Notes under the pieces: generated by a model | Databases searched by the model: none | What the model saw: the letters and a program-made list of their open reading frames with translations, nothing else | What the model was told of the DNA's origin: nothing | Shown: positions 27,966 through 31,392 of the stretch, piece by piece | Numbering within the stretch: position 1 is the first letter of the stretch | Layout of the letters: each line of letters begins with the position of its first letter | Program-made: the position numbers and the translations under genes | Origin: Streptomyces sp. NBC_01754 | GTDB taxonomy: Bacteria > Actinomycetota > Actinomycetes > Streptomycetales > Streptomycetaceae | Length of the DNA stretch: 64,000 nucleotides | Assembly (NCBI RefSeq): GCF_035918015.1 | Contig: NZ_CP109132.1 | Coordinates: forward strand, 5,146,001-5,210,000 | Reading direction: 5' to 3'

Positions 27966-28418
27966 TCAGCCGGGCGCCGGACGGGTCCTGCTGAGGCCGA
28001 TCAGCAGCGGGCCGGTGGGGGAGGAGGTGAGATCGCCGACCGTGAGCGGGTCGAGTGAGGCGTAGAAGGCGTCTTCGGCCTCGCGTAGTGCGGAGCGGAG
28101 CCGGCAGGCCGAGCGGAGGGGGCACGGGGTGTCGCCCTCGCAGTCGACGACCTCTCCGGGGCCCTCCAGCTGCCGTACCAGGCCGCCGATCGAGGCGGAC
28201 CGGCCGGTGGCCGTCATGGAGAGGCCCCCGCCGCGGCCGCGGCGCGCGTCGATCAGGCCCAGGTGCTGGAGGCGGGCGACGACCTTGGCCGCGTGGGTGT
28301 ACGGCACCTGCATGGTGGCCGCCACCTCCCGGGTGGTCGGGGGGTCCTCGCCCTCCGCCGCGACGGCCAGGCGCATGAGCACCCGGAGCGCCACGTCGGT
28401 GAATCTCGTCAGCCGCAT
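27966..28418 (-). CDS. nsrR: NsrR, Rrf2-family [4Fe-4S] nitric-oxide-sensing repressor
   Basis: This encodes 150 residues. The N-terminal winged helix (about 1-65; YTHAAKVVARLQHLGLIDARRGRGGGL) is typical Rrf2. Three cysteines at 93, 99 and 105 match the cluster ligands established for S. coelicolor NsrR. Nitric oxide destroys the cluster and releases DNA. It lies upstream of hmp on the same strand, with 120 bases between, and is divergent from the encapsulin gene. A perfect palindrome 19 bases before its start is a likely autoregulatory site. Confidence 0.94.
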   Translation of the reverse strand: MRLTRFTDVALRVLMRLAVAAEGEDPPTTREVAATMQVPYTHAAKVVARLQHLGLIDARRGRGGGLSMTATGRSASIGGLVRQLEGPGEVVDCEGDTPCPLRSACRLRSALREAEDAFYASLDPLTVGDLTSSPTGPLLIGLSRTRPAPG

Positions 28419-28432
28419 GACGGTCAGCCTAG

Positions 28433-28457
28433 ATATGTTGCATCTCGGATGCAACTT
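28433..28457. promoter_or_regulatory. Palindromic NsrR-type operator between nsrR and the encapsulin gene
   Basis: Arms GTTGCATC (28437-28444) and GATGCAAC (28448-28455) are perfectly inverted around TCG and flanked by AT-rich bases, fitting an 11-1-11 NsrR layout. The site begins 15 bases upstream of the nsrR start and ends 139 bases upstream of the shell-protein start. Confidence 0.75.
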
Positions 28458-28595
28458 AAGCGGGGTGCGCGGCGACGTCGGCAACGTGCCCCGACTGGGG
28501 ACTGGATAATCACACTCTTTCGTGTAATAGCGCGGCGTGATCCTCAGCTGAAAGGCTTCTTCGCGCAGGTCAGTCCATGATCGAGAGGATGTCGG

Positions 28596-29999
28596 ATGTC
28601 CGTTGGTGAAGAGGTTCGCGACACGCAGGCGCAACAGCAGAGTCTCGGCACAGCGGCTGCGCGGAACCTCGCGACGACGACCAAGTCCGCCCCGCAGATG
28701 CAGGAGATCACCTCGCGGTGGCTGCTGCGCATGCTCCCGTGGGTGCAGGTGCAGGGCGGCACCTACCGGGTGAACCGCAGGCTGAGCTACTCGGTCGGCG
28801 ACGGCAGGGTGACGTTCGTGCAGACGGGCGGCCAGGTCCAGGTCATCCCCGCGGAGCTCGGTGAGTTGCCGGCGCTGCGGGACTACACGGACGGAGAGGT
28901 GCTGGCCGAGCTCGCCCGCAGGTGCGAGCAGCGTGACGTGGCGGCCGGCGAGGTGCTCACGACGGCGGGGGAGGCGGCGGACCGCGTCTACCTGCTGGCG
29001 CACGGCAAGGTGCAGAAGGTCGGCTCGGGTCCGTACGGCGGCGAGGCGGTGCTCGGAGTCCTCGCCGACGGCGCCTACTTCGGCGACCACACACTGGTGG
29101 ACGGCGACGCCACCTGGGAGTACACGACCCGCGCCGTCACGGAGTGCACCCTTCTGACTCTCAGCCGCGCGGACGTGCTCAACCTCGCCGACCGCGCCGA
29201 ATCGCTCCGTGAGCACCTCGCGGCACTGCTGGCCATCCCGCAGCAGCGCACCAACCGCTACGGCGAGGCGGAGATCGACCTGTCGGCCGGGCACGTGGGG
29301 GAGAGCGTCGTCCCGCACACCTTCGTGGACTACGAGGCGGCGCCCCGGGAATACGAGCTCAGCGTCGCCCAGACCGTGCTGAAGGTCCACAGCAGGGTGG
29401 CCGACCTCTACAACCAGCCGATGAACCAGACCGAGCAGCAGTTGCGGCTCACGGTGGAGGCGCTGCGCGAGCGTCAGGAACACGAGCTCATCAACAACCG
29501 GGAGTTCGGGCTGCTCAACAACTGCGACTACGGGCAGCGGCTCCAGCCGCATGACGGGGTCCCCAGCCCCGACGACATGGACGAGCTGCTCTCGCGGCGG
29601 CGCGGCTCCAAGCTGTTCCTCGCCCATCCGCGAGCCATCGCCGCCTTCGGCCGTGAGTGCAACAAGCGCGGACTGGTGCCGGAGAGCGTGGAGGTCGGCG
29701 GGCACCACGTACCCGCCTGGCGCGGGGTCCCGATCTTCCCCTGCAACAAGATCCCGGTCACGGAAGCCCGGACGACCTCGATCATCTGCATGCGGACCGG
29801 CGAGCAGGACCAGGGGGTCATCGGGCTCCAGCAGAGCGGGATCCCGGACGAGATCGAACCGAGCCTGTCCGTCCGCTTCATGGGCATCGACGAGCAGGCG
29901 ATCATCTCGTACCTGGTGACGGCCTACTACTCCGCCGCGATCCTCGTGCCGGACGCCCTCGGTGTCCTGGAGAGCGTCGAGGTGAGCCGCTGGCGGTGA
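28596..29999 (+). CDS. Family 2B encapsulin shell protein with cNMP-binding-like insert (EshA type)
   Basis: This 467-residue protein assembles (by family knowledge) into an icosahedral protein nanocompartment of HK97 phage-capsid fold. Layout: an extended N-arm with shell start (about 1-90; [28 protein letters not shown]), an inserted cyclic-nucleotide-binding-like domain (about 95-215; [26 protein letters not shown]), then the rest of the HK97 core (about 225-467; [38 protein letters not shown]). The insert's phosphate cassette lacks the canonical Pro-Arg-Ala, having [12 protein letters not shown] instead, so cAMP binding is doubtful. GAGAGGA lies six bases before ATG 28596. An imperfect ATCACAC/GTGTAAT dyad (28509-28528) may be part of its promoter. 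S. griseus EshA is the historic relative. The next gene is the likely cargo. Confidence 0.93.
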
Positions 30000-30138
30000 C
30001 CTCCGGGCCGGGTGGGGCCAGGGCCGTGCGGGCCGCCACCCAGGCCGGGTACCCCCGTGCGCCGCATCCCGGCCGCCCGGGCCGCCTACGCGTACACCGC
30101 GACCACGGTGCCCTGGAGGCGCCCGGGAAGGAGTGACC

Positions 30139-31188
30139 GTGACCATGACGAGTACGGACGCCGCGACTGAGGGGCACGAGGCCGCAGCGCTCCTGGAACG
30201 CACCCGCGACATCGTCGGCCCGCACCTCAGAGCGGCGGTGGAAACGCTGCCCGGGACGATACGGCGGGTCGTCATGTACCACTTCGGCTGGCAGGACGCC
30301 GACGGGGTGCCCGCCGCGGGGCAGGGAGGCAAGGCCATCAGGCCCGCGCTCGTCCTGGCCGCGGCCCGCGCGCTGGGCGGCGGCCAGGAGTCGGCGCTGC
30401 GGGCCGCCGTCGCCGTGGAGCTCGTACACAACTTCACCCTGCTCCACGACGACGTCATCGACCAGGACGCGACCCGCCGGCACCGGCCCACGGCATGGGC
30501 GGTGTTCGGTGTCCCGGACGCGATCGTCGCGGGCGACGCGATGCTCGCCCTCGCCCAGCGGCTGCTGGCCGAGGACCCGCACCCCGCCGCCGCACGGGCC
30601 GCCGCGCGACTCTCGGGCTGCGTCATCGAGCTGTGCACCGGACAACAGGCCGACTGCGCCCTGGAGGAGCGCGACCCCCTCGGTGTCACGCTTGACGAGT
30701 GCCTCACCATGGCGACGGCGAAGACGGGCGCCCTGCTCGGCTGCGCCTGTGCCCTCGGAGCCCTCTACGCGGAGGCGGACGAGCCGGCCGTCGGGGCCAT
30801 GGACGGCTTCGGCAGGGAGGCGGGCCTCGCCTTCCAGCTCATCGACGACCTGATCGACATCTGGGGGGACGCCACCCGCACGGGAAAACCGGTCGGGGCC
30901 GACCTCGCCGCCCACAAGAAGTCCCTGCCGGTGGTGGCCGCCCTCACCTCCGGCACCCCCGCCGCCGACGAGCTCGCCGCGCTCTACCGCGGGGCCATGA
31001 GCACACCCGCCGAGGTGGTGAGGGCGGCGGCCGCGGTCGACCGGGCCGGCGGCCGCGACTGGGCGCAGGCCTGCGCGGCGGACCGGATGGCCCGCGCCGT
31101 ACACCATCTGTCCCGCGCCGTACCCGATCCGGCCGCGGCGCAGGACCTGCTGGCGCTGGCGGAGTTCGTGACCCGCAGGACGTGCTGA
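30139..31188 (+). CDS. Polyprenyl diphosphate synthase, probable encapsulin cargo
   Basis: This trans-isoprenyl diphosphate synthase (about 349 aa) condenses IPP onto allylic diphosphates. Both Asp-rich metal motifs are intact: DDVID (104-108) and DDLID (236-240), with GGKAIRPALVL before the first. Phe99, five residues before the first motif, suggests a short product (C15-C20) by known chain-length rules. That is inference. GTG 30139, five bases after GAAGGAG, is preferred; GTG 30133 and ATG 30145 are alternatives. It follows the shell gene by 139 bases. Polyprenyl synthases are known cargo-type neighbours of Family 2B encapsulins. No long disordered targeting tail is obvious at the annotated N-terminus, and no terpene cyclase is near. 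Confidence 0.9.
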   Translation: MTMTSTDAATEGHEAAALLERTRDIVGPHLRAAVETLPGTIRRVVMYHFGWQDADGVPAAGQGGKAIRPALVLAAARALGGGQESALRAAVAVELVHNFTLLHDDVIDQDATRRHRPTAWAVFGVPDAIVAGDAMLALAQRLLAEDPHPAAARAAARLSGCVIELCTGQQADCALEERDPLGVTLDECLTMATAKTGALLGCACALGALYAEADEPAVGAMDGFGREAGLAFQLIDDLIDIWGDATRTGKPVGADLAAHKKSLPVVAALTSGTPAADELAALYRGAMSTPAEVVRAAAAVDRAGGRDWAQACAADRMARAVHHLSRAVPDPAAAQDLLALAEFVTRRTC

Positions 31189-31392
31189 GCGGGCCGTTCC
31201 GCCGGCGGGGAGGCCTGTCCGTGGGCCCGCCGGGCTGCGCACGGCGAGTCGGTGGTGGTCCGCCGGCAGGTGGGCAGGAGTCGGGCCGTCCGACGGTGCG
31301 TCGCACGTCGGCCGGTATGCGCCTCGGGGGCCGGAGATACGAGGGGAGGGCGGCGGGGAGAGAGGGACGGGCAGGGGCTACAGTCCCTGCCC

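Follow-up and report, generated by a model that had tools for sequence, protein, structure and literature searches.

The locus analysed here is located in a 64-kb stretch of DNA (64,000 nucleotides, hereafter the window) from Streptomyces sp. NBC_01754 (NZ_CP109132.1, positions 5146001-5210000), whose genome is 7.77 Mb in size with a completeness estimate of 100%. Two genes on the forward strand, separated by a gap of 133 nt, define this locus: a gene encoding a Family 2B encapsulin shell protein at 28596..29999 (467 amino acids, ATG start) and a gene encoding a trans-polyprenyl diphosphate synthase, the putative cargo, at 30133..31188 (351 amino acids, with AAGGAG positioned 5 nt before its GTG start). 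An ORF check of the window found both frames open and intact at these positions, and both products exceed the cut-offs of their NCBIfam models (NF041163 and NF041169, respectively), confirming as real the shell-synthase pair at 28596..31188 proposed in an earlier note on this DNA. Within the shell gene, a cNMP-binding-like insert (CBD) is encoded at 28932..29195 on the same strand (residues 113-200, PF00027, 61.3 bits), followed by the HK97-type C-terminal part at 29238..29987 (residues 215-464, PF19307, 459.1 bits). In the synthase gene, the first aspartate-rich motif DDVID, contained within NFTLLHDDVID, is encoded at 30448..30462 and the second, DDLID, at 30844..30858. Ahead of the shell gene lies a conserved element, TCACACTCTTTCGTGTAATAGCG (28510..28532, forward strand), which is a putative promoter or operator of the shell-synthase unit. 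Divergent to the shell gene is an nsrR-like gene of the Rrf2 family (27966-28418) with the hmp flavohaemoglobin gene next door to it, and a perfect palindrome, TTGCATCTCGGATGCAA (28438-28454), is present between the nsrR-like gene and the shell gene. As the earlier note had held, the pair comes without a terpene cyclase: no PF19086 match is found in the 64-kb window, and the five matches in the genome, two of which share an ORF, all lie outside it, with about 220 kb separating the nearest from the pair.

Assignment of the shell to Family 2B is based on a score of 772.1 bits with the encap_f2b model NF041163 (cut-off 400) as compared to 363.9 bits with the Family 2A model NF041162, which is under its cut-off of 380, on the presence of the HK97-type shell domain of Family 2 and on the 2B-specific insert, which is absent in Family 2A. 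Closest among solved structures are 9bhu, 9bix and 9bje, at 691, 625 and 617 bits, respectively. The first of these is the Family 2B shell of S. griseus (PMC12407261), while 9bix and 9bje can be identified, from diagnostic motifs in the alignment, as what appear to be Enc2 and Enc1 of S. lydicus. Of the two diagnostic motifs, which were defined in PMC12407261, motif 1 reads RRRG in the window's shell, like RRRK of Sl-Enc2 and unlike TVWK of Sl-Enc1, and motif 2 is intermediate in the alignment with the S. lydicus shells. According to the same paper, Sl-Enc1 alone is unable to form shells. From published work, Family 2B shells assemble and have their CBDs over the two-fold pores. The window's shell is expected to assemble by itself. 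Although 9bhu belongs to the same shell family (alignment over residues 7-466), it is probably a different paralogue, since the synthase locus of an S. griseus strain (L040) encodes an orthologue sharing 87% identity with the window's shell, and 9bhu has many more differences from the window in the alignment than this orthologue. The designation 'EshA-type' in the earlier note is loose as a label, as the gene is the synthase-linked paralogue, probably the counterpart of S. coelicolor eshB (SCO5249). This putative orthology, like the link to SCO5249-SCO5250, is drawn from the literature. Expression of eshB is described to rise during development in S. coelicolor.

The synthase contains the Pfam domain PF00348 and is recognized by NF041169, the model for the family 2 encapsulin nanocompartment cargo protein polyprenyl transferase (PT), with 487.3 bits (cut-off 450). 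The next-best curated family is the GGPP synthase IdsB with 362.2 bits; IdsB-type enzymes and PDB 3nf2 (255 bits) belong to the same superfamily, but the window's enzyme remains under the IdsB equivalog cut-off of 475. Both DDxxD motifs claimed in the earlier note are indeed present, though DDLID is atypical of relatives. The second motif is DDxxG in 115 of 116 locus rows (the window included, and with four or more rows duplicating a locus already counted), and the same holds for 119 of 120 homologous proteins, among which the window's own is counted, with the window as the lone DDLID in each set; at 30856-30858 the codon specifies Asp where relatives have Gly. In the first motif region, NFTLLHDDVID is identical in 90 of the 116 locus rows. 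By the chain-length rules for these enzymes, an aromatic side chain at the fifth position ahead of the first Asp points to a product of C20 or shorter. Such an aromatic residue is present in the window's synthase, without insertion in the motif, which by these rules suggests GGPP or a shorter product. The enzyme is most likely a GGPP-synthase-like protein, and the short prenyl diphosphate that it would make is probably of C20 length. Its product need not be unique, since the genome has six polyprenyl synthetases, five besides that of the window.

Pairing of the two genes is conserved well beyond this strain. In 74 of 80 named loci the shell adjoins the synthase, and the six misses are two loci cut by contig ends (L051, L077) and four distant paralogues with 34-49% identity (L115-L118). 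Using a sample of 50 Streptomyces loci, taken as every third of 149 genomes counted above the synthase cut-off (150 in the tally elsewhere) and with the shell sought within 1.5-2 kb upstream of the synthase, adjacency was observed in 49, the exception being L177, searched within 2 kb. This adjacency is far beyond chance. Among 199 sampled genomes of the genus, a synthase above cut-off is present in 150 and a 2B shell in 196. Compared pairwise with five relatives whose frames are unbroken (L039, L045, L046, L072 and L040), the shell gives dN/dS values of 0.11-0.17 and the synthase values of 0.14-0.20; the L074 synthase was left out, since a frame break inflates its value (0.298).

The pair is of a catalogued kind, already known from hundreds of actinobacteria. 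A 2021 survey by Andreas and Giessen reported 900 PT-type Family 2B operons and 165 systems with both PT and terpene cyclase (PMC8346489). The view of the earlier note that no other locus here is a better candidate for a poorly described system was overstated, given that the class also has its own NCBIfam model. Like the window, PT-type operons (PMC8346489; NF041163 with NF041169) have a CBD-insert shell beside a polyprenyl transferase, are actinobacterial and mostly have no terpene cyclase in the cluster. The window differs from them in an N-terminal tail of at most 17 instead of 50-100 residues, in DDLID and in the missing acetyltransferase that many relatives possess. In the published descriptions consulted, this short tail, the 23-bp upstream element, shells without synthase and the DDLID of the window were not encountered. 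Widespread as the pairing is, with a synthase above cut-off in three quarters of the sampled genus genomes (150 of 199), a literature search covering mainly open-access journal papers yielded no experimental work on encapsulins of the polyprenyl-transferase type.

A disordered N-terminal domain of 50-100 residues is described as typical of such cargo (PMC8346489). By length and start codons, no domain of this kind is present in the window's synthase: from the stop at 29983 to 30133 there is no in-frame start codon upstream of the GTG, hence at most 17 residues precede ALLERTR, the first conserved helix. The enzyme was nevertheless kept as a PT-type cargo, because membership in NF041169 is a matter of score and does not demand a tail. 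Across 112 aligned rows, tails are of two short types, MTSTDAATEGHEAA and MGTTEAITTGEGHEAA, and two long types, beginning with MGEFMTE and with MKTHHAPQPPTPRAPGD, and the long MKTHHAPQPPTPRAPGD type falls within the window's own group in tree order (branch support not given). The alignment of 118 rows leans to the query and is partly redundant, with three rows for the window's locus and two rows for each of four other loci; L051, L077, L096, L098, L104 and L136 were dropped for the tree of 112 rows. In L071, L061, L062, L063, L070 and L108 a conserved start peptide of the MKTHHAPQPPTPRAPGD kind is followed by a variable Pro/Ala/Gly-rich stretch, an arrangement suggestive of a tag carried by a flexible arm. 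The GxEAxxLLER region is a stretch common to the synthases and is partly present in 3nf2, a polyprenyl synthetase outside the family. In the systematic genus sample, a long tail is impossible under any start codon in 13 of 50 synthases, counted even with the longest possible start and including that of L177, where the shell was not found. By the chosen start, 19 of 50 have a clearly longer tail; however, start codons were picked by Shine-Dalgarno score and at least six of the 50 picks look too far downstream, for which reason more weight is given to the former figure. Thus, a long tail is not a general requirement, and loading may instead be mediated by the folded N-terminal region or by a short tail. 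Loading signals can accordingly be sought, in short-tailed synthases, among a few residues or on a folded surface.

The conserved upstream element precedes shells of the synthase type. Its sequence TCACACTCTTTTGTGTAATRGCG is common to shell leaders of PT loci, and the element is matched with up to six mismatches in 72 of 75 shells of named PT loci. Of 84 distinct leaders, 72 have the start of the element at a distance of 84-91 bp from the ATG (86 bp in the window). When loci of the genus were compared, the element was present in 10 of 10 shells with a synthase vs 1 of 20 without, the lone carrier (L139) being a syntenic locus with no synthase match. In a scan of the genome, the first 21 bases had one site only at up to three mismatches. 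A scan for the sigma-70 consensus gave no match, and a SigB-type promoter was retained as a lead only, as the published -10 consensus starts with GGG (PMC8346170) and the consensus of the copies here reads GTG. Control of the shell by NO through the NsrR-like palindrome was considered and rejected, since across loci the palindrome tracks nsrR and not the shell. With the window's own palindrome as query, 51 of 52 leaders with nsrR as the divergent neighbour (window included) match at least 11 of 17 bases, in contrast to a best match of 8-11 of 17 in 23 leaders with nsrR elsewhere; the palindrome hence belongs to nsrR. An Rfam element in the shell leader was also discarded: the lone match is to RF02735 (Saccharopolyspora antisense RNA) at 28623-28700 on the reverse strand, below threshold (33.8 bits, E 5.5e-7; gathering score 50), antisense and inside the coding region, and it is read as conservation of the coding sequence.

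The shell is retained in some genomes with a missing or damaged synthase. Among 50 genomes of the genus read as having no synthase above cut-off (49 as implied by the tally of 199), nine contain a shell with 75% or more identity to that of the window. Three of these (L158, L159 and L163) have no synthase match and have kept the shell with its 5' element, and in L163 the acetyltransferase is kept as well. In L162, 47 C-terminal residues of the synthase are left, in L157 the copy is frame-broken, in L160 it is shortened and in L161 it is diverged but readable, while neither a synthase match nor a good copy of the element is present in L164 and L165, where the neighbours are different as well. 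At 465-468 residues, the retained shells of L157, L158, L159, L162 and L163 are of full length, and their pairwise dN/dS vs near relatives is 0.07-0.22, as compared to medians of 0.14 (dS 0.2-0.5) and 0.30 (dS 0.5-0.8) for random synthase-bearing shell pairs; such pairwise values do not separate selection before the synthase loss from selection after it, and the loss may be recent. Full-length shells persisting beside deleted or broken synthases count against the synthase as the shell's sole purpose and suggest that it may serve in another role, with recent loss being possible. These genomes can serve as natural controls for the function of the shell itself.

Taking these results together, we consider it probable, with some reservation, that the locus encodes a single-component Family 2B polyprenyl-transferase encapsulin, in which the synthase is packed in a self-assembled shell and makes a short prenyl diphosphate. 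The shell protein would assemble into an icosahedral shell with the GGPP-synthase-like enzyme inside, IPP and an allylic starter would enter via the shell pores, and the CBDs over the two-fold pores may gate this flux, though not through cAMP or cGMP. A synthase-loaded shell is the most likely reading given the matches to the NCBIfam equivalog and cargo family, the adjacency, the single shell gene of RRRG type and the low dN/dS. The compartment making a prenyl diphosphate that was suggested in the earlier note fits the published reading of such operons as terpenoid biosynthesis, and what we infer is that this shell assembles alone, that the synthase is enclosed as cargo, its product and its mode of loading. 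Against loading stand the absence of the long disordered tail, the genomes that keep the shell without an intact synthase, and the L177 synthase with no shell nearby. The missing long tail of this synthase, the 13 of 50 synthases that cannot have one, the lost, remnant, broken or shortened synthases of L158, L159, L163, L162, L157 and L160, and the dN/dS of the five retained shells would be accounted for if the synthase is co-transcribed yet not packed, acting as an ordinary cytosolic GGPP synthase, with the shell empty or filled with other cargo. We regard this as a possible but doubtful explanation, because adjacency is nearly invariant over the genus, a curated cargo family exists, and the dN/dS comparison is blind to the timing of selection relative to loss. 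More tentative still is the proposal that the synthase-type 2B shell of Streptomyces might be independent of the synthase and of a long disordered tag. In one large group, enzyme uptake would then occur via either a tail no longer than about 17 residues or the N-terminal helices in their folded state, and the shell, expressed from its own upstream element, would have a second cargo or job that keeps it intact after synthase loss.

Two further alternatives concern the shell itself. Control by cyclic nucleotides, with cAMP or cGMP at the insert opening or closing the shell, would be in line with the PF00027 match and with the resemblance of the insert to CRP-like and channel domains in structure-sequence matches. 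However, in the alignment to 4muv and 3co2 no Arg is found at the aligned phosphate-binding place of the insert. The Mll3241 channel domain (4muv) reads 'EPRSAT', and its Arg, which we take to be the residue holding the cyclic-nucleotide phosphate, stands opposite a Thr of the window; chain 3co2 reads 'PWSAT', with Trp matched to Trp in the window. Cyclic-nucleotide binding by 2B shells was suggested in the 2021 survey (PMC8346489) and is no requirement for belonging to Family 2B, and the Family 2B insert is stated not to bind cyclic nucleotides in PMC12407261, itself citing a preprint. A cyclic-nucleotide role, on which the earlier note had touched, is thus disfavoured and such control appears very improbable. 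Even less credible is that the window's shell forms half of a two-component shell with its partner elsewhere in the genome. Two components are reported for 21% of 2B operons (PMC12407261), and in Saccharopolyspora rosea (L110, 2908-7989) two 2B shell genes are located upstream of a 52% identical synthase. The S. lydicus two-component shell (9bix, 9bje) shares family and insert with the window, but its two shell genes belong to a xylulose-kinase system, as compared to one shell gene with a synthase here. No second 2B shell is present within 10 kb, and a profile search of the whole genome, complete by estimate, revealed one shell gene above cut-off, the other match to the 2B model (45 bits) being to the model part that holds the cNMP-like domain.

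Around the pair, a set of neighbours recurs in the 80 named loci, comprising a PALP enzyme (71), antiporter-like (68), snapalysin-like (67) and LysR-like (67) genes, hmp (59) and nsrR (57), with no isoprenoid gene among them; the labels nhaP/antiporter, snapalysin, LysR and epimerase were given by eye. Weak matches of the PALP gene include an ACC-deaminase model. PT operons were reported to be enriched in epimerases, dehydrogenases, acetyltransferases and deaminases, read as terpenoid tailoring enzymes (PMC8346489). This enrichment may partly reflect plain synteny, because the PALP and epimerase-labelled genes near the pair sit amid unrelated genes on both strands. A GNAT acetyltransferase (PF00583) comes after the synthase in 46 of the 80 named loci and is present in 27 of 50 sampled stretches and in 23 of 30 top-scoring genus loci; it was set aside as a novel partner, since acetyltransferases are already listed for PT operons in PMC8346489. 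The window has no match to it, including at its usual place (31189-31392), and the best match in the genome reaches 28 bits, hence this lineage seems to have lost the gene. In L072, a short partial acetyltransferase match looks like a remnant.
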